A DNA stretch of 64,000 nt from positions 1 to 64,000 of the forward strand of contig CANBQT010000001.1 of assembly GCA_947371755.1 (NCBI GenBank). The letters are read 5' to 3'. The number at the start of each line of letters is the position of its first letter. The stretch's first letter is position 1. Source of the DNA: Chitinophagaceae bacterium. GTDB taxonomy: Bacteria > Bacteroidota > Bacteroidia > Chitinophagales > Chitinophagaceae. The notes below the pieces were generated by a model. That model was given only the letters and a program-made list of their open reading frames with translations, was not told the origin of the DNA and did not search any database. The translations under genes were made by a program, and so were the position numbers. Positions 190-43,864 of this stretch are shown one piece after another.

Positions 190-1050
190 ATGACAACTAA
201 AGGATATCGAAAACTAATTTTTTTTAATCTCAGCTTTCTTGCACTATGGCTGATTTTTGCTCAGAGCTGTATGAAGATGAGAATTAGCGATGGTAAAGCA
301 AAAAAAGAATTTGCTGAAAAGGGCGTTAATTTATTTACCGAAACCTTTCAGGTAAATGGCTACCCTATTCATTATGTAAAAACCGGGAACGATAGTTTAC
401 CAACTTTGTTCTTTGTACATGGCTCTCCTGGTAGTTGGGATGCTTTTAGTGTATATATGAAGGATAAAGATTTGTTAGCTAAATATCGTATGATTGCCAT
501 TGACAGACCAGGGTTTGGTTATAGCAGTTTTGGTGATTCAAAAAATCTAGCAGCGCAATCAAGAATCATCAGTCTTTTTTTAGACCATATTACCAATGGT
601 AAACCCATACACATTATCGGGCATTCTTTGGGTGGACCGCTTACCGTTAAACTAACGTCAGATAATCCAAATGTATTTACAACTATGGTTTTGCTGGCAG
701 CCTCTGTTGACCCTGCTGAGGAACCTACTGAAAAGTGGAGAGGATTTTTGTTCAATACACCTTTTCAATATTTATTACCAGGAGCCTTCAGGCAAAGTAA
801 CAATGAAATTTGGATGGCAAAAAAAGAACTGGATTCATTAGCAAAACAGTTTGCTTCCATCACCTGTGATGTATGGATAGTTCATGGCGATGCGGATACT
901 TTTGTACCTGTTGGTAATGCTGCGTATGCTAAAAAAATGCTAGTGAATGCAAAGTCTGTTCAAACAAAAATACTTTCTGGAGCGCCACATTTTATTCCCT
1001 GGGCTCCCTGGTATACTTACATCAAGGACATTTTATTACAAATAAAATAG
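190..1050 (+). CDS. alpha/beta hydrolase, membrane-anchored or lipoprotein
   Basis: A 286-residue alpha/beta-hydrolase. The nucleophile elbow GHSLGG puts the catalytic Ser at residue 146. The acid is probably the Asp in VHGDADTF and the His is in GAPHFIPW, so the triad is complete. An oxyanion-type HGSPGS loop follows strand 3. The N-terminus is a hydrophobic segment ending in a Cys at residue 27 (FAQSC), which could be a lipobox or just a membrane anchor, so the catalytic domain is probably outside the cytoplasm. The substrate cannot be read from the sequence; esterases, lipases and haloperoxidase-like enzymes share this fold. The gene stands alone and converges on the Rieske/FMN gene downstream. 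Fold is sure, substrate unknown. Confidence 0.85.
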   Translation: MTTKGYRKLIFFNLSFLALWLIFAQSCMKMRISDGKAKKEFAEKGVNLFTETFQVNGYPIHYVKTGNDSLPTLFFVHGSPGSWDAFSVYMKDKDLLAKYRMIAIDRPGFGYSSFGDSKNLAAQSRIISLFLDHITNGKPIHIIGHSLGGPLTVKLTSDNPNVFTTMVLLAASVDPAEEPTEKWRGFLFNTPFQYLLPGAFRQSNNEIWMAKKELDSLAKQFASITCDVWIVHGDADTFVPVGNAAYAKKMLVNAKSVQTKILSGAPHFIPWAPWYTYIKDILLQIK

Positions 1051-1161
1051 AACAGTACAATTGAATTTTACATATCTGACTTATTACATTAGCCTAAATT
1101 GATATTTAGTTCTCAGATGATAAATCCGGTCCACAATCTCAGTATCTGAATAATAAACCTT

Positions 1162-2772
1162 TTAAGCTCCAATACCTGCAAAAGTAATTCCGGTTAAGCG
1201 ATGCATCTCATAGATGAAGGTTGATAGATCATCTTGATTAAACTGATTGATATGATGATAGCCACAAGAACGTGCAATGACTTTTATGAGATCATTACTG
1301 GCATCCAGAAAACGATGGAGCTGATGGGCAGAAGATTCTATCATCAGCCGACTTCTCAGGCTTTCTTTCTGCGTGGCAATGCCAACAGGACAATTATTGG
1401 ATCCGCAAGCACGCATTCCTAGACATCCAATTGCTTGTAGTGCAGAGTTGGAAACTGCAATGGCATCTGCACCCATCATCAGTGCTTTGGCAAAATCTGC
1501 TGGTATCCTAAGTCCGCCTGTAATTACCAACGAAACATGCTTTGCACCCGATTGGTCAAGATGTTTTCTTGCCCTGGCAAGTGCGGGAATAGTAGGCACA
1601 TTAATGTTATCCCTCAAAATAGTTGGTGCAGACCCGGTACCTCCGCCCCTGCCATCCAGAATAATATAATCTGCACCTGCAGCAAGTGCGAAATCAATAT
1701 CAGCTTCTATATGACTTGCTGCTATTTTGAAACCCACCGGGATACCACCACCTATATCCCTGACTTGTGAAGCAAAGTTTGCAAAATCTGTTACTGTTTT
1801 AAGGTCAGCAAAGGTTGCTGGTGAAATGGCCGCTTCACCTGGTTTTAACCCCCTTACAATTCCAATCTCCTCTGTAACCTTACTAGCGGGAAGATGCCCC
1901 CCTGTTCCCGTTTTCGCGCCCTGTCCACCTTTAAAATGAAATGCCTGTGCCTTTTTTACTTTATCCCAGGAAAACCCAAATTTTCCTGAAGCATATTCAT
2001 AAAAGTAGCGACTATTTTGTGCCTGTTCATCAGGTAACATCCCCCCTTCTCCGCTGCAGATACCAGTTCCACTCATTTCAGCACCCATTGCCAACGCAAT
2101 CTTGGCTTCTTTAGAAAGAGCTCCAAAACTCATGTCAGATACAAAAATCGGGATGTCGAGTTGAAGGGGTTTTGCTGCAGCCGGGCCAATGATAACCTTG
2201 GTATCCACCTCCACATGATCCAGCAAAGGCTTGGTTGCTAATTGTGCCGGAAGGAACTGAATATCATCCCAGGATGGAAGGTTAACTCTTGAAACACCCA
2301 TGGATGCAGACGGACCGTGATGGCCGGTTTTTTTCAACCCATTACGGGCAAGTTCTCTTATATACAATGTGTGCGGCTCATCAACTTCCGGATGGGTATC
2401 TGCATAAGCTCCCAGATACTGCTCACGATCAAAAGGTTGAGGATGAACTTTTCCATAAGCTTCAATTTCATCCTGATCAACCATTACTGAATTATCCTCA
2501 ATGAATACAGCAAACTTTTGCAGCACTTCTTGGTTGTTGTATTCACTTACCCCAGAATCGATACGATAATCCCAGCCATGTAATCCGCAAATCAGATTTT
2601 GTGCCTCTACATACCCATCTGCCAACAGTGCTCCCCTGTGCAAGCATCTACCGTAAAGAACGGAATACTGATCATCAAATCGTACAACCACTAGGTCAAT
2701 TTCTTTTACCAGACGGTGTTCAGGTTTGCGGTCTTCAAAATCAGTGCACGCTCCGAGTGAAATCAAATGCAT
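1162..2772 (-). CDS. Rieske domain fused to glutamate-synthase-type FMN oxidoreductase
   Basis: A 536-residue fusion. Residues 1-100 form a Rieske [2Fe-2S] domain with ligands C43, H45, C62 and H65 (CLH and CGLH motifs). From about residue 170 it is the FMN-binding barrel of glutamate synthase, with the glycine-rich GGGTGSAP phosphate loop and the Cys-rich MRACGSNNCPVG segment that corresponds to the [3Fe-4S] site of GltB. There is no amidotransferase domain, so ammonia or another amine would have to be supplied directly, or the reaction may differ. Relatives include archaeal-type GltS and N-methylglutamate synthase subunits; which reaction applies here is unknown. It is transcribed away from the two other Rieske-fusion genes, 65 nt apart, suggesting shared control. 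The true gltBD pair lies at 37838-43864. Confidence 0.88.
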   Translation of the reverse strand: MHLISLGACTDFEDRKPEHRLVKEIDLVVVRFDDQYSVLYGRCLHRGALLADGYVEAQNLICGLHGWDYRIDSGVSEYNNQEVLQKFAVFIEDNSVMVDQDEIEAYGKVHPQPFDREQYLGAYADTHPEVDEPHTLYIRELARNGLKKTGHHGPSASMGVSRVNLPSWDDIQFLPAQLATKPLLDHVEVDTKVIIGPAAAKPLQLDIPIFVSDMSFGALSKEAKIALAMGAEMSGTGICSGEGGMLPDEQAQNSRYFYEYASGKFGFSWDKVKKAQAFHFKGGQGAKTGTGGHLPASKVTEEIGIVRGLKPGEAAISPATFADLKTVTDFANFASQVRDIGGGIPVGFKIAASHIEADIDFALAAGADYIILDGRGGGTGSAPTILRDNINVPTIPALARARKHLDQSGAKHVSLVITGGLRIPADFAKALMMGADAIAVSNSALQAIGCLGMRACGSNNCPVGIATQKESLRSRLMIESSAHQLHRFLDASNDLIKVIARSCGYHHINQFNQDDLSTFIYEMHRLTGITFAGIGA

Positions 2773-2837
2773 AAAGCAATTAAAGTTTAAAAAGTAAAAT
2801 ACAGAAATATCTCTAAATTGTGCAAAATTGATACAGG

Positions 2838-3026
2838 ATGTCTGATTTACCGGCTATTTATGCCCTTGGAGGTCTCCTATTCTCCTGCTGGTTTTCATGG
2901 ATAAAACTGAGAAAATCTGATCCAATGGCTGAGCATGCATCTGTTGGATTCAGAATCATCACCATGCCTGCAGCCATATTATTATGGCCACTCATTCTGA
3001 TCAAAATCATTCGTTCACATGAATAA
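2838..3026 (+). CDS. small membrane protein, first gene of Rieske operon
   Basis: A 62-residue protein with two hydrophobic segments (about residues 6-20 and 40-58) joined by a charged loop (KLRKSDPMAEH). I do not recognise the family. It is likely real because it opens a tightly packed operon: its stop overlaps the next start by 8 nt, and the following genes are 10 and 2 nt apart. Divergent from the Rieske/FMN gene. It may be an assembly factor or small subunit of the ferric-reductase-like membrane protein downstream, but that is inference only. Confidence 0.6.
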   Translation: MSDLPAIYALGGLLFSCWFSWIKLRKSDPMAEHASVGFRIITMPAAILLWPLILIKIIRSHE

Positions 3027-3111
3027 ATCACTGCGTAAAAGTCATCTTGCAATCTGGATATTACTATTGGTTATCCTGCTGACTGGAGTTATCTGCATAT
3101 CATTTAATTAA
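3019..3111 (+). CDS. 30-aa single-span membrane peptide
   Basis: A 30-codon frame: a short basic start (MNKSLRKSH) followed by one hydrophobic helix and stop. Its ATG lies inside the last codons of the preceding 62-aa gene (ATGAATAA overlap, 8 nt), the layout of translational coupling, and it ends 10 nt before the next ATG. Codons are compatible with translation, but the length alone gives no statistical support. Function unknown; small single-span subunits are common beside membrane redox proteins, so an accessory role is plausible. Confidence 0.5.
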   Translation: MNKSLRKSHLAIWILLLVILLTGVICISFN

Positions 3112-3121
3112 TTTCACCAAT

Positions 3122-5002
3122 ATGGGGCATGATTATCAAGCAATTTCTTGGAACAGATTTAAAAAGAGGTATGACCTGTTGCTTTGGTCTTTTAACCTGA
3201 CTTATTTGGCGCTTTTTATCGCTTTAAACATCATCCTTTTTCCACAACATAATGTCAACACTATCCTGATCAGGGCATTGGGAACACTGGCCATTTTGCT
3301 GCTTCATTTTATCCTGATCATTGGTCCGGCTTCCCGCTTTATACCCAAACTGCTGCCACTATTATATAACCGAAGACATGTAGGCGTTTCGACATTTCTG
3401 GTTGCTGCCGGGCATGGCATACTCAGCCTGATCTGGTTTCACGGTGGAAGCAATACACCTGTACTAGTTTCTCTGTTTACCAGCAATATGCATTATAACT
3501 CTCTGCAATTTTTCCCCTTTCAGACTTTGGGTTTTTTTGCGCTGCTGATACTGGCAGCGATGGCTTTTACCAGCCATGATGTATGGCTGAATGTATTGTC
3601 TCCCGCCACCTGGAAATTATTGCACATGCTGGTTTATGCGGCATATGCGCTGGTGATAGCTCATGTTGCGCTTGGTGTGCTGCAGCTGGAAAACAACCCG
3701 ATTCTGGTAATCATGCTTTATACTGGATGTTTTATCATTACCTCATTGCACCTTATGGCTGCATGGAAAGAGCGCGTGGAAGCAAAAACAGTTGCAGATG
3801 AGTGGATTTTTGTGGGCAACCTGCAGGACATGGAAAATAATAGGGCAAAAATTGTGGAAGGTAAGGATGAAAGGATTGCCGTATTTATGTATGACAATAA
3901 GCTGAGTGCTGTAAGCAATGTGTGCAAGCATCAGCTGGGGCCAATTGGTGAGGGAAAGATTGTTGATGGTTGCATCACTTGTCCCTGGCATGGTTACCAG
4001 TATAGGCCAGTTGATGGCTGCGCACCACCTCCATTTACTGAAAAATTAGCCACCTTCAGACTTAAAATGGAAGAGCAGAAAATATTTGTGGATCCGATAT
4101 CGTTGCCTGAAGGAACTTCAGTTGAACCAATCCGCATTGATTCAACAGCAAACAATGCCAAAGACAAGGGTTTGTTTATTGGATGGGATTCTGCCAACCT
4201 TGGAATTCAGAGCAGGTTTGCGTTAAACATAGCAATCACAATGATGGGTATAGCTTTATTGATAGGTGTAATTTTCACAATCAATCAACAAAAAATTACG
4301 CCATATAAGATCGACTATACACAGATTAAACAAATGCAGGGATGGCTCAGCAAAGAACCTGTTCCAATGCTTACAGTTATTATTGGAAAAGATCATTCCG
4401 GCAACCCCGTTTTTAAGACTATCTTATTGGTAGATGCGCTAAAAAATGGAGCAGACAATACCATCAGCTCCTACCTTAAAAATAACCAAAGTAGCTATGT
4501 TGAAATCACAGGATACCTGAGCAGTAATCTTTTATCCTGTGGAACGGATTCAGCTTCTTCCTGCAAAGACCTCTGTTCACAGTGTCTCACAGGTACTTTG
4601 AATGCCCCATTGATGGAAATAGAAAATGGAATTTTCTCCATCAAACAAAAACAACCACCTCCAGGAATCACCGCCCAGACGATACCAATTTCCGAAAAGG
4701 ACTGCACCATTACAGGAGAAATAATCGACCCGAAATGTTATTTTGGCGCTATGAACCCGGGTTATGGTAAACCACACCTCAGTTGCGCTGTTCGCTGTAT
4801 CTCTGGAGGCATCATGCCGGTGCTGAAATACACTGAAAACGGAAAAGAACAATTTGCTGTTCTATTATCAGCAACAGGAAAACCTGTCAATGAACAGGTA
4901 CTTTCAGTAATCGGTTTGCCAGTAAAAATCTCCGGCAAACTAAGTTCTTTGAACAATTGGCCAATACTCAATATTTTATCCCTTCAGCCAAAAACTCACT
5001 GA
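3122..5002 (+). CDS. ferric-reductase-like membrane protein with Rieske domain and Cys-rich C-terminal domain
   Basis: A 626-residue multidomain protein. Residues 15-215 hold about six membrane segments of the ferric-reductase/MsrQ type, with several His residues in helices that could carry haem (LLHFILI, AAGHGILS, LLHMLVY, IAHVALG). Residues 225-330 are a Rieske domain with ligands C268, H270, C287 and H290 (VCKHQ, CPWHG). One more membrane helix follows at about 365-385. The C-terminal 240 residues are soluble and Cys-rich (CGTDSASSC, CSQC, PKCYFGAMNPG, SCAVRCISGG), a pattern that suggests metal binding or disulfides. Probably passes electrons across or within the inner membrane. Many Leu codons are CTG, unlike most neighbours. 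Follows two small membrane genes and precedes another Rieske fusion by 2 nt. Confidence 0.85.
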   Translation: MGHDYQAISWNRFKKRYDLLLWSFNLTYLALFIALNIILFPQHNVNTILIRALGTLAILLLHFILIIGPASRFIPKLLPLLYNRRHVGVSTFLVAAGHGILSLIWFHGGSNTPVLVSLFTSNMHYNSLQFFPFQTLGFFALLILAAMAFTSHDVWLNVLSPATWKLLHMLVYAAYALVIAHVALGVLQLENNPILVIMLYTGCFIITSLHLMAAWKERVEAKTVADEWIFVGNLQDMENNRAKIVEGKDERIAVFMYDNKLSAVSNVCKHQLGPIGEGKIVDGCITCPWHGYQYRPVDGCAPPPFTEKLATFRLKMEEQKIFVDPISLPEGTSVEPIRIDSTANNAKDKGLFIGWDSANLGIQSRFALNIAITMMGIALLIGVIFTINQQKITPYKIDYTQIKQMQGWLSKEPVPMLTVIIGKDHSGNPVFKTILLVDALKNGADNTISSYLKNNQSSYVEITGYLSSNLLSCGTDSASSCKDLCSQCLTGTLNAPLMEIENGIFSIKQKQPPPGITAQTIPISEKDCTITGEIIDPKCYFGAMNPGYGKPHLSCAVRCISGGIMPVLKYTENGKEQFAVLLSATGKPVNEQVLSVIGLPVKISGKLSSLNNWPILNILSLQPKTH

Positions 5003-5004
5003 TT

Positions 5005-6135
5005 ATGGAATTTATACCTGTGTTAAAGCTGGATGAACTGCCAGCAGAATCATCTAAAATTGTTAAGGCAGGCAACAAAAAGATTGCCCTTTTTCACTAC
5101 AACAATAAAATTACAGCCCTCGGTAATGCCTGCCTTCACAGAGGTGGACCGCTTGGAATCGGACATGTCAAAGCATGTTATGACGGACTATACGTCAGCT
5201 GCCCCTGGCATGGCTGGGAATACAATATCCAAACTGGCTCAGCAGCCCCCGGCTATGAAGATCAGCAATCTGTTTATGAAGTTAAGATAGATGACAACCA
5301 GATACTGATCAGCAGCGAACCCGTGATTCAGGCTAAAAAAGCCTTCCATGATTCACCACTTCTGGATGACCTCAAAAACCTACGCTACCAGACTTCTCCA
5401 ACATCGCTGAATATACTTGGAATTTCTGCCACCAATATGCACAAGGATCTACCAAGATTTTCAACATCAGAAGATGCACTAGAAAAATCACTAGCTTTTG
5501 CTACAGAACAACTGGGTGCTGAAACCCGGATGATCAAACTCCGAGATCTCGAATTCAGACATTGCGAGGGTTATTATTCCCAACACATGCAGGCCTGCAA
5601 CTGGCCCTGCAGCATTACGGAAATGAATCCGGAAGACGGTATGACCAAAGTTTATGCTGACATGATTCTCTGGGCAGATATAGTTGTAATGGCAACTCCC
5701 ATCCGCTGGGGACAGGCCTCCTCGCTGTACTACAAGATGGCGGAAAGGTTGAATACCGTTCAAAATCAGATTACATTAAAAAATAAGATCCTTGTCAAGA
5801 ATAAAGTTGCCGCATTTATCATAACAGGCGGACAGGACAATATTCAACAGGTAGCCGGACAAATGATGTGCTTTTTCACCGACCTAGGTTTCGCCTTCCC
5901 TCCGTTCAGTTTCATGGGATGGAGCAGGGGGTGGACAGCTGAGGATATGGATAAAAATGTAATGCAATTCAAAAAAAGCGATTATGTGGTGCGTGCATCG
6001 AAAGAATTAATGGAAAATACTGTGGAAACACTTAAGCAACTAAAAAGGATGAACCCTGATAAAATTACGGCACCCAAACCCCGGAAAAACGACTCATGGA
6101 GTAGTGAAATTGAAAATCCAGACCAGAATTATTGA
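5005..6135 (+). CDS. Rieske domain fused to flavodoxin-like NAD(P)H:FMN oxidoreductase
   Basis: A 376-residue fusion. Residues 1-105 are a Rieske [2Fe-2S] domain with ligands C43, H45, C66 and H69 (CLHRGG, CPWHGW). From residue about 130 it is an NADPH-dependent FMN-reductase/flavodoxin fold: LNILGISATNM begins the first strand and phosphate loop, and ATPIRWGQASS is the typical second FMN loop. I chose the ATG at 5005, directly after the preceding stop; an in-frame TTG at 4957 would overlap the previous gene by 46 nt without adding a recognisable domain. Probably cytosolic; it could shuttle electrons from NAD(P)H through FMN to the Rieske centre and on to the membrane protein encoded just upstream. 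Partner and substrate are inferred from context. Confidence 0.87.
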   Translation: MEFIPVLKLDELPAESSKIVKAGNKKIALFHYNNKITALGNACLHRGGPLGIGHVKACYDGLYVSCPWHGWEYNIQTGSAAPGYEDQQSVYEVKIDDNQILISSEPVIQAKKAFHDSPLLDDLKNLRYQTSPTSLNILGISATNMHKDLPRFSTSEDALEKSLAFATEQLGAETRMIKLRDLEFRHCEGYYSQHMQACNWPCSITEMNPEDGMTKVYADMILWADIVVMATPIRWGQASSLYYKMAERLNTVQNQITLKNKILVKNKVAAFIITGGQDNIQQVAGQMMCFFTDLGFAFPPFSFMGWSRGWTAEDMDKNVMQFKKSDYVVRASKELMENTVETLKQLKRMNPDKITAPKPRKNDSWSSEIENPDQNY

Positions 6136-6532
6136 ACCCGAAATTTTTTATTGCTCAAGTAAGAAATATATACCAAGTAAATCTGAACCAAGATTTTTAA
6201 TTGCCTCTAATATGCCATAATCTTCAGCTCTTTTATTAATTTATCTAAGAAGTAAAAATGGAAAAAAAACAAGATTGGTATTCCTAAAAACATCTAAGCT
6301 TAACACCTTGTGAAATTTCAAATACATTTTCAATATAAATTAGGCATAAAAAGATACTAATCATATTGAAATTGGGGTAAACAAATCCTGCATTCGTTTA
6401 CTTTCACAAGCAAAGGAATCTTCATTACTTAAACATAAAATATGATGTTCAATACCTTATAGCGCAAACGAGTGCAAATAAAACTGAATACCTTTATCAA
6501 CTAGATCACAAACCTAGCTAGTAATTAGCCCT

Positions 6533-6568
6533 AAAAACTCCGATTTCATTAGATTTCGGAGTTTTTTT
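6533..6568. terminator. bidirectional terminator hairpin after the Rieske operon
   Basis: Perfect 9-bp stem AAACTCCGA/TCGGAGTTT (6535-6543 with 6556-6564), 12-nt loop, followed by a run of T on the plus strand and preceded by A on the other side. It lies about 400 nt after the last Rieske gene, farther than usual. Confidence 0.7.
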
Positions 6569-6640
6569 TATGCCCTTTGTGGTAGGCTTTTGTAGTCATT
6601 TGTACTAAATTTTGTGGCTCTGTTGAGGTACACGCAAAAT

Positions 6641-6668
6641 GAAAAACCACTCCCGGCTAAGAGAGTGG
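6641..6668 (-). terminator. minus-strand terminator of the 211-aa exported protein
   Basis: Stem CCACTC/GAGTGG (6647-6652 with 6663-6668) followed on the minus strand by five T. It sits 38 nt after the stop codon of the gene at 6706-7341. Confidence 0.7.
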
Positions 6669-6705
6669 CAATACCAAAATAGTTTATTACTTAAATTAGA
6701 AATGA

Positions 6706-7341
6706 TCACTTTTCATAAGGGAAGTTTCTAGTAACTTTTCTCATCATTCTTTCTACCATTTCATTTGCACTAGAAAATGCTCCTTCATTCATTTCTTTTG
6801 AAAATCTCCAAAGCAACTTCCCATCTTTTCCGTTATAGATATGCATAGTTAATAAACCTGAAGCTACACTTCCACCAAACCCTCCAAATATTAATGATTT
6901 TGCAATGGCTCCTGCTTCGCTTGCTGTTTTTTCATATGCATATGTGGCACCAATAACCGCATCTACTTTTAATATTTTACAAATAGTATCTTTTAAAGTT
7001 TCATCAAGTTTATCATAAACACCTGCTTTCTTTAATAAAATATTGGTTGTTTCAACATCCTGGCAAGTCACTGTAAAGTCATTTGACTTTCGCAAAATAA
7101 AAGTATACATACCTTCTTGCATACCTAATCCTTGTTTAATTTCCTCTAGCCTATTACCCTCTGCATCAAATCCTTTTGGCATTTTTTTATAGGAAATTGT
7201 AACTCTTAAAGGTAAAATGGCAATAATCTTATGTTCTTTTATTTCTGTTTTATAATTTGGTGCTTCAAATATTTGTTTTGAAGCCTGACCGTAAGATGAT
7301 AAAGAAATTAGTAGAATTAAAATTGAAAATAAATATTTCAT
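6706..7341 (-). CDS. exported protein, LpoB/CsgG/GNA1162-like fold (tentative)
   Basis: A 211-residue protein with a clear Sec signal peptide (hydrophobic stretch ending SSYGQA). The mature part has a strand reading IIAILPLRVTI, a segment where a helix ends in CKILKVDAVIGATY, and a late strand HIYNGKDGKLLWRFS. This order resembles the nucleotide-binding-like fold shared by CsgG, LpoB/PenB activators and GNA1162-type lipoproteins, but there is no lipobox Cys. A Gly-rich hydrophobic patch (IFGGFGGSVASG) could be membrane-active. No operon partners; its own terminator follows. Function not assignable; the fold call is a by-eye guess. Confidence 0.65.
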   Translation of the reverse strand: MKYLFSILILLISLSSYGQASKQIFEAPNYKTEIKEHKIIAILPLRVTISYKKMPKGFDAEGNRLEEIKQGLGMQEGMYTFILRKSNDFTVTCQDVETTNILLKKAGVYDKLDETLKDTICKILKVDAVIGATYAYEKTASEAGAIAKSLIFGGFGGSVASGLLTMHIYNGKDGKLLWRFSKEMNEGAFSSANEMVERMMRKVTRNFPYEK

Positions 7342-37685: not shown

Positions 37686-37837
37686 ATATTTTCTAACGAT
37701 TTTGCTGATTAATTAGACAATTTCAACTATTACACGTTAGTATACAAGTTTAGCTCTTGAATTTGCGAATTATGATGTAATTTGCCACTATCGATTGCCC
37801 ACCATTAATTTCCTGAATATTAATAATTCGGTTGAGT

Positions 37838-40800
37838 ATGCTTGAGACAAAAAATCAAGGATTATACGATCCTTCGTTTGAACATGACGCCTGTGGTATT
37901 GGTTTTGTTGCGAATATCAAGGGACATAAGAGTCACCAATACATTTCTGATGCACTTACTGTATTAGAAAACATGGAACATCGTGGTGCCTGCGGTTGCG
38001 AGAACAATACAGGTGATGGAGCTGGTATCATGCTTCAAATGCCCCATGAGTTTTTCTTTGATGAATGCATCAATTTAGGTATTCAATTACCCGCCTATGG
38101 CAAATATGGCGTTGGATTTTTATTCTTTTCGAAAGAAATCAGAGTGAGAGAGGAATGCCGTGATATTTTTAATCGCGCAGCTGAAAAATTAGGTTTAGAA
38201 ATTCTTGGTTATAGAAAAGTACCTGTCAATAAAACCGACATCGGACCAACCGCTCTTTCTGTAGAACCCTGCATGGAACAGGTTTTTATCGCTTGCCCAG
38301 ATCACATTACCGATCCTGAAGCATTTGAAAGAAAACTGTTTGTATTGCGTAATTATGCAACCCATACCATACAGAATACAGTTATAAAAGATGAGGTTGG
38401 ATTTTACCTGGCCTCTTTATCTTATAAAACAATTGTTTACAAAGGGCAATTAACAAGTACACAAGTGAGGGGGTATTTCCCTGACTTGAGCGACAAGCGC
38501 GTAGTTTCAGCCTTTGGTTTAGTGCACTCTCGATTTGCTACCAATACTTTTCCTTCATGGAAACTTGCACAGCCTTTTAGATATATTGCTCATAACGGCG
38601 AGATCAATACCTTACAAGGAAACCTGAACTGGTTGCGGACCAATGAAAAAGGTTTTGCTTCTCCTTTTTTCAGTAAAGAAGAAATGGATATGCTTTTGCC
38701 CATTGTCAATGGCGTACAAAGTGATTCGGCCAGCCTCGACAATATGATTGAGCTGCTTACCCTAACCGGACGCTCATTACCACATGTAATGATGATGCTG
38801 ATTCCAGAAGCATGGGATGGCAACGAGGATATGGATGCAATCAAAAAGTCTTTCTATGAATTCCACGCCTGTATGATGGAACCATGGGATGGCCCTGCCT
38901 CGATTTCATTTACAGATGGAAAAATCATTGGAGCAACACTCGACAGAAATGGTCTTAGACCCTCTCGTTATTGTGTTACTAACGACGACCGGGTAATCAT
39001 GGCTTCCGAAACCGGTGTATTACCAGTTGATCCATCCACTATTATAGAGAAAGGAAGATTACAGCCAGGTAAGATGTTTGTAGTGGATATGGAACAAGGC
39101 AGAATTATTAGTGACGATGAATTGAAATCAGATATTTGCTCCAGAAAGCCCTATGCAGAATGGTTAAACAAATACAAGATTCGCCTGGAAGAATTACCTG
39201 AACCAAGGGTAATGTTCACGCACTTGGAATCTGATCAGATATTTAAATATCAAAAAGGATTTGGCTACTCTTCAGAAGACCTTGATAATATTATTTCTCC
39301 CATGGCAGTGGATGGCAAAGAACCTATCGGTTCGATGGGAACTGATTCTCCACTGGCAATTCTGAGTGATCAACCACAGCATTTGAGTAGTTATTTTAAA
39401 CAATTATTTGCTCAGGTTACCAACCCGCCTATCGATCCGATCAGAGAAAGAATGGTGATGTCTCTTGCTACATTTGCAGGAAGCACAGGAAACCTTTTGG
39501 TGGAAGATCCCTTAGCTTGTCACGTAGTTGCTTTACAACAACCTGTGCTGACTAGTTATGAGTTAGAAAAAATCAGAAGTATTGATACCGGAGTTTTCCA
39601 GGCCAAAACTTTGCAGACTTATTTCAGAGCGGATGGCAAACCTGGATCATTGAAAAAAGGCCTGGATCGTTTGTGTCGCTATGCTGTAGATGCTGTGGAA
39701 GATGGTTTTGAAGTGATTATATTAACTGATAGAGCGATCGATTCTGATCACGCTCCTATCCCGTCTTTATTAGCTTGTTCTGCAGTTCACCACCACTTAA
39801 TCAGAAAAGGATACCGTGGTCAAGTGGGTATTATCGTAGAAGCAGGCGATGTTTGGGAAGTACATCATTTTGCTTGCTTGATTGGATTTGGCGCAACAGC
39901 CATCAATCCTTATTTAGCCATTTCTTCTATTCGAGACATGAAAATCAGTGGCCGTCTAGTTACTGATATTGATCCTGATTATCTCAAGAAGAATTATGTA
40001 AAAGCAGTTAATGAAGGACTTTTAAAGGTGTTCTCTAAAATGGGCATCTCAACTTTACAATCCTATCAAGGCGCACAAATTTTTGAAATCATTGGTTTGA
40101 ATAAAGAAGTGGTGGATGCTTATTTCACAGGTGCTACCTCCCGTATTGAGGGAATGGGACTGGATGAAATTGCAAAAGAAACATTAACCAAACACTTCTT
40201 TGCATTTAGCAGAAAGGAAATCCCTGTAGACCGCTTACCAGTCGGTGGCTTATACCAATGGAAAAGAAAAGGTGAATTTCATCTTTTCAATCCTCAGACT
40301 ATTCATTTATTACAAGAATCTACCAAGACAAATAGCTTCGAAACATTCAAGAAATACACCAAATTGGTGAACGACCAATCTGTAAAAGCTTGTACCATTC
40401 GAAGTCAGTTTCAATTCAAACCTTCCCGACCTTCGATATCTATTGATGAAGTAGAACCAGCAGAATCTATCTATAAAAGATTTGCAACTGGTGCTATGAG
40501 CTTTGGATCCATTTCCTGGGAAGCACATACTACACTAGCTATTGCTATGAATCGTTTAGGTGGTAAAAGCAATACAGGAGAAGGTGGAGAAGATCCTATT
40601 CGCTTTAATTTAATGGAGAATGGCGATTCCATGCGCTCATCTATTAAACAAGTGGCATCAGCAAGATTTGGGGTTACCAGTCATTATTTGACCGAAGCCG
40701 ATGAATTACAAATTAAAATGGCTCAGGGCGCAAAACCTGGAGAGGGCGGACAATTGCCTGGTCACAAAGTGGATGACTGGATTGGAAAAACCAGGCACAG

Positions 40801-42355
40801 CACTCCTGGAGTTGGCTTGATTTCTCCACCCCCTCACCACGATATCTATTCAATTGAAGATTTAGCTCAATTAATTTTTGATCTAAAGAATGCAAATAGA
40901 GCTGCTCGAATCAATGTAAAGTTGGTTTCAAAAGCTGGAGTGGGTACCATTGCAGCAGGAGTTACTAAAGCAAAGGCAGACGTAGTGCTGATAGCCGGTT
41001 TTGATGGTGGTACAGGTGCTTCTCCGATTAGCTCCATTAAACACGCCGGTTTGCCTTGGGAATTAGGTTTAGCAGAAGCTCATCAAACATTGGTAAAGAA
41101 TAAGTTACGCAGTCGAGTAGTAGTTCAGGCTGATGGGCAAATGAAGACTGGTCGCGACATCGCTATTGCTGCATTATTAGGTGCTGAGGAATGGGGAGTG
41201 GCAACTGCCGCATTAATTGTGGAAGGTTGTATCATGATGCGTAAATGCCATTTAAATACCTGTCCGGTTGGCGTAGCAACCCAGGACCCAGAATTGCGTA
41301 AGCGTTTTAAAGGAGATCCAGATCATGTGGTGAATTTCTTCAAATTCATTACTCAGGAGTTAAGAGAGATCATGGCAGAACTTGGATATAGAACCGTTAA
41401 TGAAATGGTTGGTCAGGTTCAGGACTTAACAATGCGCGACGATATCACACATTGGAAATATAGCAAACTCGACCTATCTCCTATTTTATACAAACAGCCC
41501 GCAGATGAAACTACGGGATTGTATAAAACAGAAGAACAAGATCATGGCCTGAGCGAAGTTTTGGATTGGCAACTTTTAAAAATTGCCCAGCAGGCAATTG
41601 ATACAAAAGAAAGAGTTCAGGGCAGCTTCCTGATTAAAAATACGGATCGCACAGTTGGAACGATTGTTTCCAATGAGATTACGAAAAAATATAAAGCAGA
41701 AGGACTACCAGACGATACAATACATTTCAATTACAGAGGTACTGCTGGACAAAGCTTTGGTGCGTTCAATTCTAAAGGTTTAACACACGAATTAGAAGGC
41801 GATGCCAATGATTATTTTGGAAAGGGTTTAAGTGGAGCCAAACTAATTGTATATCCTGATAGAACAGCAAGTTTTGTGCCTGAAGACAATATCCTTATAG
41901 GTAACGTAGCATTTTATGGTGCTACTGATGGAGAAGCTTATATCAGAGGAAAAGCTGGAGAAAGATTCTGTGTTAGAAATTCTGGTGCAAAGGTTGTGGT
42001 TGAAGGCGTTGGCGATCATGGTTGTGAATATATGACCGGAGGCATCGCTGTAATTCTTGGAACCACCGGACGTAATTTTGCTGCTGGTATGAGTGGTGGA
42101 ATTGCATATGTATACGATGTAGATGGATCTTTCGCAAGTCGTTGCAATATGGAAATGATTGATCTGGATCCAGTAGATCAGGATGATGCAATTGTTCTGA
42201 ACGACCTGATCACTAAACATTATGCTTATACAGCAAGCACTGTAGCAAAATTTGTGTTAGGTGATTATGAATCTCAACTGAAAAACTTTATCAAAGTATT
42301 TCCTAAAGATTACAAGAAAGCATTATCAATTAAAAAAGAAAAAATTGCCGGTTAA
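37838..42355 (+). CDS. gltB: glutamate synthase large subunit
   Basis: A 1505-residue GltB. It transfers the glutamine amide to 2-oxoglutarate. The N-terminal amidotransferase should start at C19 after propeptide cleavage (FEHDACGIGF). The FMN site is around GVGTIAAGVTKAKADVVLIAG and GGTGASPISS. The [3Fe-4S] cysteines are in CIMMRKCHLNTC. The C-terminal beta-helix domain has the repeated Gly motifs (VEGVGDHGCEYMTGG, AGMSGGIAYVYD). The ATG at 37838 is preferred to a TTG 6 nt earlier. gltD follows after 36 nt. Confidence 0.97.
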   Translation: MLETKNQGLYDPSFEHDACGIGFVANIKGHKSHQYISDALTVLENMEHRGACGCENNTGDGAGIMLQMPHEFFFDECINLGIQLPAYGKYGVGFLFFSKEIRVREECRDIFNRAAEKLGLEILGYRKVPVNKTDIGPTALSVEPCMEQVFIACPDHITDPEAFERKLFVLRNYATHTIQNTVIKDEVGFYLASLSYKTIVYKGQLTSTQVRGYFPDLSDKRVVSAFGLVHSRFATNTFPSWKLAQPFRYIAHNGEINTLQGNLNWLRTNEKGFASPFFSKEEMDMLLPIVNGVQSDSASLDNMIELLTLTGRSLPHVMMMLIPEAWDGNEDMDAIKKSFYEFHACMMEPWDGPASISFTDGKIIGATLDRNGLRPSRYCVTNDDRVIMASETGVLPVDPSTIIEKGRLQPGKMFVVDMEQGRIISDDELKSDICSRKPYAEWLNKYKIRLEELPEPRVMFTHLESDQIFKYQKGFGYSSEDLDNIISPMAVDGKEPIGSMGTDSPLAILSDQPQHLSSYFKQLFAQVTNPPIDPIRERMVMSLATFAGSTGNLLVEDPLACHVVALQQPVLTSYELEKIRSIDTGVFQAKTLQTYFRADGKPGSLKKGLDRLCRYAVDAVEDGFEVIILTDRAIDSDHAPIPSLLACSAVHHHLIRKGYRGQVGIIVEAGDVWEVHHFACLIGFGATAINPYLAISSIRDMKISGRLVTDIDPDYLKKNYVKAVNEGLLKVFSKMGISTLQSYQGAQIFEIIGLNKEVVDAYFTGATSRIEGMGLDEIAKETLTKHFFAFSRKEIPVDRLPVGGLYQWKRKGEFHLFNPQTIHLLQESTKTNSFETFKKYTKLVNDQSVKACTIRSQFQFKPSRPSISIDEVEPAESIYKRFATGAMSFGSISWEAHTTLAIAMNRLGGKSNTGEGGEDPIRFNLMENGDSMRSSIKQVASARFGVTSHYLTEADELQIKMAQGAKPGEGGQLPGHKVDDWIGKTRHSTPGVGLISPPPHHDIYSIEDLAQLIFDLKNANRAARINVKLVSKAGVGTIAAGVTKAKADVVLIAGFDGGTGASPISSIKHAGLPWELGLAEAHQTLVKNKLRSRVVVQADGQMKTGRDIAIAALLGAEEWGVATAALIVEGCIMMRKCHLNTCPVGVATQDPELRKRFKGDPDHVVNFFKFITQELREIMAELGYRTVNEMVGQVQDLTMRDDITHWKYSKLDLSPILYKQPADETTGLYKTEEQDHGLSEVLDWQLLKIAQQAIDTKERVQGSFLIKNTDRTVGTIVSNEITKKYKAEGLPDDTIHFNYRGTAGQSFGAFNSKGLTHELEGDANDYFGKGLSGAKLIVYPDRTASFVPEDNILIGNVAFYGATDGEAYIRGKAGERFCVRNSGAKVVVEGVGDHGCEYMTGGIAVILGTTGRNFAAGMSGGIAYVYDVDGSFASRCNMEMIDLDPVDQDDAIVLNDLITKHYAYTASTVAKFVLGDYESQLKNFIKVFPKDYKKALSIKKEKIAG

Positions 42356-42391
42356 TCGGCTTTAAGAAATTAATCTACTAAACCATCCAAT

Positions 42392-43864
42392 ATGGGTAAA
42401 CCAACAGGTTTTATAGAATTCACAAGAGAATTACCAGGTAAACGCCCGGTGGCAGAACGTATCAAGGATTATCATGAATTTGTAGAACGTCTTCCGGAAG
42501 AAAAATTGAATCAGCAATCAGGCAGATGTATGAACTGCGGAGTACCTTTTTGCCATAGTGGATGTCCTTTAGGCAATGTAATCCCTGAATTCAATGATGC
42601 TATATATAATAAGAGCTGGGAAGAAGCATACGACATCCTCACCTCCACTAATAATTTCCCGGAGTTTACCGGAAGAATTTGCCCGGCTCCTTGCGAAAGC
42701 GCTTGTGTGCTTGGCATCAATCAACCACCCGTTACGATTGAAGAGATTGAAAAACATATTATTGAGATTGCATTTGATAAAGGCTTTGTAAAACCACGCA
42801 AGCCGAATGTAAGGACTGGCAAAAAAATTGCTGTGGTTGGATCTGGTCCATCCGGATTAGCCGCTGCCGCACAATTAAATTATGCAGGCCACTTAGTAAC
42901 TGTATTTGAGAGAGACGATGCGCCAGGAGGATTATTGAGATATGGCATTCCTGATTTCAAACTTGAAAAATGGGTAATTGACCGCAGAATTTCTGTAATG
43001 GAACAGGAAGGTGTGATATTTAAGTGTCAGTCCAATGTGGGTGTTAATGTGAGCATTAATGACTTATTACGTGAATTTCATGCCATCGTTTTAGCGGGTG
43101 GCTCTACCGTTCCAAGAAATCTACCAATTCCGGGAAGAGAATTAAAAGGCGTTTATTTTGCGATGGAATTTCTTAAGCAACAAAACAAAAGAGTTGCAAA
43201 CCTTCCGTTAGAAGAAGAATCACTTTTGGCAACCCATAAAAATGTTGTGGTAATTGGTGGTGGAGATACAGGGAGTGACTGCGTTGGAACATCTAATAGA
43301 CATGAGGCTAAGACGGTAACCCAATTTGAATTATTACCTAAGCCACCTGTAGGTAGAACTGATAATATGCCTTGGCCTACTTATCCGATGACATTAAAAA
43401 TCACTTCTTCACATGAGGAAGGTGCTGATCGTTATTGGGCTATTGCAACCAAATCTTTTATAGGTGATGAAAATGGCCATTTAAAAGCTTTAAAAATTGT
43501 GGATCTGGAGTGGGCTATTTCTGCAGATGGTCGTCCCGCGAAATTTGTTGAGAAAGAAGGATCAGAAAGAGAAATACCATGCGAACTTGCGTTGTTAGCG
43601 ATGGGATTTGTTCATCCACAACACGAAGGCCTGATCAATCAGCTTGGAATTGAATTAGATGAAAGAGGTAATGTAAAAGCTACAGAACAAGCATTTCAGA
43701 CTAATATCAATAAGATATTCACAGCCGGAGATATGCGAAGAGGCCAGTCATTGGTTGTTTGGGCAATCAGTGAAGGAAGAGAATGCGCCAGAAAAGTAGA
43801 TGAATATTTAATGGGACACTCTTTATTAGAAACGAAAGACAGTAGCTATATCGTAAATAGCTAA
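42392..43864 (+). CDS. gltD: glutamate synthase small subunit
   Basis: A 490-residue GltD that hands NADPH electrons through FAD and Fe-S centres to GltB. N-terminal Cys motifs MNCGVPFCHSGCPLGN and GRICPAPCESACVLG; FAD loop VVGSGPSGLAAAAQLNYAG; NADPH-binding VVVIGGGDTGSDCVG; C-terminal FAD contact NKIFTAGDMRRGQSLVVWA. All features intact. Operon with gltB; a strong terminator follows. Confidence 0.96.
   Translation: MGKPTGFIEFTRELPGKRPVAERIKDYHEFVERLPEEKLNQQSGRCMNCGVPFCHSGCPLGNVIPEFNDAIYNKSWEEAYDILTSTNNFPEFTGRICPAPCESACVLGINQPPVTIEEIEKHIIEIAFDKGFVKPRKPNVRTGKKIAVVGSGPSGLAAAAQLNYAGHLVTVFERDDAPGGLLRYGIPDFKLEKWVIDRRISVMEQEGVIFKCQSNVGVNVSINDLLREFHAIVLAGGSTVPRNLPIPGRELKGVYFAMEFLKQQNKRVANLPLEEESLLATHKNVVVIGGGDTGSDCVGTSNRHEAKTVTQFELLPKPPVGRTDNMPWPTYPMTLKITSSHEEGADRYWAIATKSFIGDENGHLKALKIVDLEWAISADGRPAKFVEKEGSEREIPCELALLAMGFVHPQHEGLINQLGIELDERGNVKATEQAFQTNINKIFTAGDMRRGQSLVVWAISEGRECARKVDEYLMGHSLLETKDSSYIVNS

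Follow-up and report, generated by a model that had tools for sequence, protein, structure and literature searches.

A four-part membrane core is the conserved unit in this part of the window (the whole 64,000-nucleotide stretch of DNA that was analyzed), and it is narrower than the trio of Rieske fusion genes found there. It consists of a small two-TM protein, a small one-TM protein, an FRD haem domain joined to a Rieske domain, and a tail with a Cys/His/Cys/Cys motif. We propose that this core moves electrons from the cytoplasm to the periplasm as a YedZ/STEAP-type haem conduit loaded by Rieske-tagged enzymes, a reading in which our confidence is somewhat less than even. The genes are listed in Table 1.

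Table 1. Genes of the Rieske cluster, in window positions.
Feature	Position	Strand	Role
Rieske-GltS (Rieske plus glutamate-synthase-type FMN domain), 536 aa	1162-2772	-	Optional partner
sm62, 62-aa two-TM protein	2838-3026	+	Core subunit; Rhizobium counterpart exists
30-aa one-TM protein	3019-3111	+	Core subunit
FRD gene, first part (six-TM FRD haem domain, then Rieske)	3122-4150, boundary approximate	+	
FRD gene, second part (TM7 plus OB-like tail)	4151-5002, boundary approximate	+	
Rieske-FMN reductase (NADPH-dependent, flavodoxin-like), 376 aa	5005-6135	+	Optional partner

Pfam detected Rieske (E 2e-11) and Glu_synthase (E 6.3e-88) domains in Rieske-GltS, Ferric_reduct (E 3.7e-10) and Rieske (E 9.6e-14) in the product of the whole FRD gene (3122-5002), and Rieske (E 1.7e-14) and FMN_red (E 6.6e-10) in the Rieske-FMN reductase. 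In all three proteins PF00355 scored above its cut-off and the C-x-H...C-x-x-H ligands were complete (residues 43-65 of Rieske-GltS, 268-290 of the FRD protein and 43-69 of the FMN reductase), which bears out the original prediction of three neighboring Rieske fusions carrying three different redox modules. The possibility raised with it, that these are ferredoxin domains of Rieske oxygenases, gained no ground, as Pfam detected no oxygenase domain among the seven ORFs scanned (190-7341). Rieske-GltS shares the FMN domain and a 3Fe-4S-type Cys motif (C450-C461) with the glutamate synthase large subunit and archaeal-type GltS, and differs from glutamate synthase in its N-terminal Rieske domain and in the lack of any glutaminase (GATase_2) domain detectable in the chain by Pfam.

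The plus-strand genes are closely packed. The sm62 and 30-aa ORFs share 8 bases, the FRD gene follows after a 10-base gap, and the ATG of the FMN reductase lies 2 bases past the FRD stop codon, a tight spacing that fits a single operon; Rieske-GltS diverges from these genes, with 65 bases between the starts. A TTG start at 4957 was considered for the FMN reductase and set aside in favor of the ATG at 5005, as the longer ORF overlaps the FRD gene; the FMN-reductase copy at the locus of a near relative (L011) has no ATG at the matching position. Comparison of the window with L011 gave dN/dS values of 0.09 for Rieske-GltS, 0.23 for sm62, 0.17 for FRD and 0.04 for the FMN reductase, indicating purifying selection on these genes, strongest for the FMN reductase.

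The composition of the core was apparent from its relatives. Blastp detected an sm62-like ORF close to FRD-Rieske in 16/18 loci from genome contigs and the phylum sample, and in 16/17 stretches from 16 genomes of the window organism's family; it found none in L016, of which L137 is a duplicate, or in L037, where the contig starts inside the FRD gene. A narrow sm62 pattern gave 14/36, and the BLAST counts were relied on instead. The tail accompanied FRD-Rieske in 34 of the 36 rows, being fused in 8 (two of them duplicates) and encoded by a separate downstream gene in 26, with an extra ORF between FRD and tail in L151; L038 and L142, which make up the other two rows, end at contig edges. Most relatives encode the tail in its own gene; the core therefore has four functions, and in the window a single gene combines the last two. 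The 30-aa protein is a short version of one that in many loci reaches about 145-165 aa and has an extra domain. The claim that the two small membrane genes belong with FRD was supported, and they are conserved as proteins in relatives. The core was found across Bacteroidota, where the FRD gene occurred in 12 of the 394 phylum-sample genomes (window genome excluded) and in 16/213 other genomes of the family, and on Rhizobium plasmids. Five Rhizobium plasmid records matched both FRD and tail, and the three examined had the same order of two small genes (71 and 53 aa in L042), FRD-Rieske and tail. Viral contigs gave 57 pattern matches to FRD relatives, none of which was confirmed.

The FRD protein belongs to the FRD superfamily (PF01794, 40.3 bits against a cut-off of 28), with the haem histidines conserved in TM3 and TM5. 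R84, R85, H86, H98, H152, H168 and H181, as well as the Rieske ligands C268, H270, C287 and H290, were invariant in 37/37 aligned rows, and H62 and H107 were kept in 34 and changed in 3. These 37 rows represent 35 distinct stretches, as L135 and L137 apparently repeat L013 and L016; L014 and L047-L076, being partial or duplicate, were left out. In YedZ and STEAP proteins the first canonical histidine is lost, with arginine in its place, and two or three others are kept, according to PMC3591440, and residues R84, H98, H168 and H181 fit this pattern. Foldseek matched the FRD model to Rieske ferredoxins and weakly to STEAP4 (E 2.7e-3) and STEAP2 (E 6.1e-3); the full FRD plus tail model was poor (pLDDT 56.8) and was used just for these likenesses. 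Charge counts suggest that the Rieske domain is cytoplasmic and the tail periplasmic.

The Cys-rich tail named in the original prediction is present; it is here predicted to be periplasmic and to have its own fold. Its motif in the window protein is C539/H552/C555/C559. Alignment of 14 tails from Bacteroidota and Rhizobium, chosen from 31 distinct motif-bearing domains plus two Rhizobium tails, gave 13 invariant columns, including three Cys and one His, and the first tail domains of the window, L011, L012 and L013 have another four cysteines in common. The tail model (pLDDT 74.5, pTM 0.71) has two OB-like domains, with the Cys/His insert placed after the first strand of the second. Its best structural match (Z 7.6 over 75 residues, rmsd 2.7) has a Z-value that is common among unrelated models and would not by itself prove kinship. 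The fold lists, which held mostly nucleic-acid-binding OB proteins, were used for the OB arrangement alone, and no tail function was drawn from them; SilF and NlpE (Z 5.5-6.1) were not treated as related. Sequence searches found no match for one tail in PDB sequences at E up to 1, a single chance-level match to superoxide reductase (E 0.49) with the 14-tail profile, and nothing over a cut-off when six tails were compared with Pfam at E up to 10. Across the window genome, outside the FRD gene, the tail profile gave one weak match with three stops.

Co-occurrence of the core with Rieske-tagged enzymes was counted in 394 phylum genomes, excluding that of the window, and the counts depend on the E-value limits used. 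Rieske-GltS was present in 47 genomes (leaving out ten whose match begins at residue 161-162 and so has no Rieske part), a Rieske-ThDP (thiamine-diphosphate) enzyme in 10, and the Rieske-FMN reductase in 47. Rieske-GltS occurred in 11/12 FRD genomes versus 36/382 others (Fisher 2.5e-10) and Rieske-ThDP in 5/12 versus 5/382 (Fisher 2.4e-6), values that ignore shared ancestry, and the FMN reductase was in 0/12 FRD genomes of this sample. Nine of the ten ThDP genomes also had Rieske-GltS, and the overlap between GltS and FMN reductase was 4/47 genomes. Rieske-GltS is therefore a frequent partner of the core and the Rieske-ThDP enzyme an alternative one, and the FMN reductase mostly occurs without the core. 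The original prediction took the trio for a single system. The co-occurrence of Rieske-GltS with FRD, far above expectation, supports part of this claim, but an obligate trio is unsupported, and the genes do partly occur apart in relatives, since the FRD core is in 0 of the 47 other FMN-reductase genomes.

Neighborhoods gave a similar picture. Of the 11 genomes with FRD and Rieske-GltS, 6 had the two genes about 5 kb apart or closer and 5 had them on different contigs; Rieske-ThDP lay within that distance of FRD in 3 of the 5 genomes with that pair. Rieske-GltS adjoined FRD in 8/18 loci from contigs and the phylum sample and in 0/17 family stretches; several of these loci and stretches are short, some being limited by contig ends. 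The FMN reductase directly follows FRD in the window, L011 and L013, the L013 copy having a frame break and a stop. When the same gene order was sought in other genomes, as had been suggested, the four-part core recurred and the complete trio was seen only in the window and its near relative L011; the sequence of L014 is cut off inside FRD. Rieske-GltS and Rieske-ThDP genes stand side by side in L057 and L058, where FRD had no match, and are about 1.4, 4 and 17 kb apart on three haloarchaeal plasmids, with no FRD match in the plasmid stretches compared; the plasmid records name these fusions by homology alone. A ThDP enzyme is nearby in three Rhizobium loci, and the one scanned (L042) gave no Rieske match. 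In a tree of 26 chosen Rieske rows, FRD and GltS domains fell into separate supported groups by protein type, the FMN-reductase domains into a fairly supported group (93/89), and Rieske-ThDP rows into no settled group; two outgroup rows were long branches. Local duplication as the origin of the three Rieske genes was rejected, because their Rieske domains cluster with namesakes from other genomes.

A membrane-linked electron chain, as originally predicted, is the best reading of these observations. In the outward route that we propose, soluble Rieske-tagged enzymes would oxidize their substrates and pass the electrons on through their own Rieske clusters, the proposed substrates being NAD(P)H for the Rieske-FMN reductase, an amino or imino acid for Rieske-GltS and, in other species, a 2-oxo acid for the Rieske-ThDP enzyme. 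Rieske-GltS, which had been placed at the end of the chain, may instead be an electron source. The tagged enzymes would dock at the FRD protein's own Rieske domain, predicted to face the cytoplasm, and hand over the electrons to it; b-type haem, held in the six-TM domain by the conserved histidines as in YedZ/MsrQ and STEAP, would carry the electrons across. They would then reach the predicted tandem OB-like tail in the periplasm, whose Cys/His/Cys/Cys site may be the acceptor or may hold a metal, haem or thiol being reduced, a reaction that would serve repair or metal handling. Both small TM proteins are putative accessory subunits. A secreted-looking MsrA-MsrB gene lies immediately downstream of the core at one locus only (L012). 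Counting against the conduit, Rieske-GltS (36 genomes) and the Rieske-FMN reductase (47 genomes) exist without FRD. A more tentative extension is that NAD(P)H-flavin, glutamate-type FMN and thiamine-diphosphate enzymes all dock through their Rieske domains on this common conduit, which would drive reduction in the periplasm by way of a new kind of OB-like Cys/His domain, as plugs on an electron bus whose inputs are swapped and whose four-part core is kept.

The main rival, which haem- and metal-linked neighbors at several loci bring forward, is a STEAP-like metalloreductase or haem-iron system whose substrate would be Fe(III), Cu(II) or haem bound to the Cys/His site in the periplasm. These neighbors are HmuY-like (L016, below the Pfam cut-off), HbpS-like (L138 and L146), UPF0093 (L015, L042 and L044), chlorite-dismutase family (L046), and TANGO2 with YHS (L030 by Pfam; L011 by BLAST likeness, YHS below cut-off). 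The Foldseek matches to STEAP4 and STEAP2, the YedZ/STEAP residue pattern (PMC3591440), and the OB metallochaperone SilF among the tail fold matches (Z 5.5) point the same way. However, the neighbors vary by locus, are raw observations and in some cases lie several genes off, and the fold Z-values are within the range that the tool calls common by chance; we consider this explanation possible, with a probability well below one half. A NOX-like oxidase producing extracellular superoxide is very improbable: FRD is homologous to NOX (PMC5676040), but no FAD- or NADPH-binding domain was matched in the FRD protein, and a dedicated conserved periplasmic domain comes after the haem domain.

Two further explanations concern the partners. 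The FRD core could be one system and Rieske-GltS and the Rieske-FMN reductase independent of it, placed there by chance or common regulation, as might be expected from the FMN reductase being in none of the 12 FRD genomes, from Rieske-GltS being on a different contig in 5/11, and from Rieske domains that group by protein type and not by genome. The FRD/GltS association (p 2.5e-10, ancestry ignored), the adjacency in 6/11 genomes, and the FMN-reductase start 2 bases past the FRD stop together with its dN/dS of 0.04 argue otherwise, and we regard the absence of a shared function as unlikely. Slightly more doubtful still is inward flow, in which the haem would receive electrons from a donor in the periplasm and the Rieske domains would supply cytoplasmic reductions, such as formation of glutamate by Rieske-GltS. 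GltS FMN domains ordinarily run reductively, and the 3Fe-4S motif is retained, but Pfam detected no glutaminase domain in Rieske-GltS, the NAD(P)H-type FMN reductase encoded in the operon would be superfluous, and the window also has a GltB-sized ORF (1507 aa, with a Glu_synthase match) and, after it, a GltD-sized one, the pair spanning 37832-43864.

The nearest working precedent for the proposed outward conduit is Fre-MsrQ-MsrP, which moves electrons outward (PMC5676040). MsrQ (YedZ), fed by Fre, is likewise a six-TM FRD haem protein with a soluble flavin reductase as the likely donor and a periplasmic partner that is reduced. The window FRD protein differs from MsrQ by its Rieske domain and its OB-like Cys/His tail; it scored 26.4 bits with the MsrQ equivalog NF003831, against a cut-off of 130, and no MsrP (molybdopterin) domain was found in the seven ORFs scanned (190-7341, on a contig that starts at window base 1). 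MsrQ-like cytochromes are also present in flavinylated chains (PMC11334425). STEAP metalloreductases have a similar FRD residue pattern and a weak Foldseek likeness; STEAP2-4 have a nucleotide-binding domain (PMC3591440), in place of which the core has a Rieske domain and the predicted periplasmic tail. Bacterial NADPH oxidases (SpNOX) resemble the FRD protein in FRD homology and transmembrane electron transfer, and differ in having fused FAD/NADPH domains, of which Pfam hits at E up to 0.1 showed none in the FRD protein. The FRD-Rieske module was already listed in 2013 (PMC3591440, model M4), as an architecture, with no operon, tail or partners in the portion of that source available. Among the open-licence PMC articles listed by literature searches, no title or abstract opening described the operon, the tail, or the Rieske-GltS and Rieske-ThDP fusions; the core gene set is seemingly undescribed as a system.

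Reducing power is known to be exported through the inner membrane by proteins of the DsbD/ScsB kind and by MsrQ or flavinylated chains, and the way in which donors are used differs from one of these routes to the next. A conserved conduit with a Rieske inlet and interchangeable Rieske-tagged donors, if true, would add a further means of driving chemistry in the periplasm, and it would hint at what the Rieske-GltS and Rieske-ThDP fusions of Bacteroidota and haloarchaea do. The tail motif offers a definite target for spectroscopy.

The FRD gene was absent in 30/30 other genomes of the same genus, about half of which are less than 90% complete or more than 5% contaminated; three had weak matches to the Rieske part alone. 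An assembly artefact as the source of the cluster is made less likely by closely related genes in L011 and L014, which are two other MAGs, and there may be a chimeric join near the contig start, given this absence and the higher GC content of the cluster (0.428 versus 0.363 in the window from 6707 on). GC3 was 0.42 for FRD, 0.44 for the FMN reductase and 0.34 for Rieske-GltS, and 0.27-0.32 for nine other window genes checked. The cluster was likely gained horizontally. Rfam at gathering thresholds gave no match in the window, promoter-like sites were not above shuffles (12 versus a shuffle mean of 15.8), and terminator-like sites, on which no conclusion was based, numbered 10 against a shuffle mean of 5.2. 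The longer other Rieske ORF of the genome sits on another contig.

A GltB-sized open reading frame followed by a GltD-sized one is also present in the window (see the table below), and Rieske-GltS, in which a Rieske domain is joined to a glutamate-synthase FMN domain, therefore looks like an additional gene of the glutamate synthase kind. Among the stretches compared from other genomes or plasmids, Rieske-GltS is accompanied by a protein of about 263 residues in L029, L051, L054, L065, L066, L074 and L076. This companion gave no Pfam match; a WPHHFD-like motif was seen in several copies, and the protein accompanies Rieske-GltS even in stretches without a visible ferric-reductase-like membrane domain (FRD). 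In the haloarchaeal plasmids L041, L043 and L045, the regions that carry Rieske-GltS and Rieske-ThDP (thiamine-diphosphate enzyme) genes also contain merA and TauE/SafE-type genes, and some have redoxin or DsrE genes as well.

Coordinates and basis of individual features
Feature	Location	Basis or state
GltB-sized ORF (1507 aa), then GltD-sized ORF (490 aa)	window 37832-43864	Glu_synthase match in the 1507-aa ORF; size for the 490-aa ORF
Broken FMN-reductase gene	L013 8961-10090	frame break and in-frame stop
Companion of Rieske-GltS (~263 aa)	L029 10714-11505	

A single family of small genomes (f18), probably Chlorobiaceae, accounts for 46 genomes with the Rieske-FMN reductase; there it often adjoins a gene judged LysE-like from the sequence letters. 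In L013 the FMN-reductase gene is broken, and the FRD gene preceding it is fully open.

The core consists of the small two-TM protein sm62, a small one-TM protein, FRD-Rieske and a tail. Downstream of it, proteins resembling DinB and ATP-grasp by BLAST recur in L011 (a near relative with the full trio), L030, L036, L037 and L039; by the same likeness, the ATP-grasp-like part in L036, L037 and L039 belongs to an abhydrolase/VTT protein, and the Pfam scores of both L030 copies fell slightly under the cut-off. TANGO2-, YHS- and DoxX-like genes are common to L011 and L030. Upstream of sm62, genomes of the window's own family (L138, L140-L144, L146-L148 and L151) encode a protein that resembles subtilases and contains a CBM48/AMPK-type domain, assigned by Pfam scan for the L142 and L146 copies and from the sequence letters for the remainder; complete copies have a CPLC zinc-finger-like N-terminus.

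The L016 contig, titled as an Alphaproteobacteria MAG, agrees in length and in its match with a contig (L137) from a genome that belongs to the window's own family; the Alphaproteobacteria title is probably wrong. L016 also carries an HmuY-like gene.
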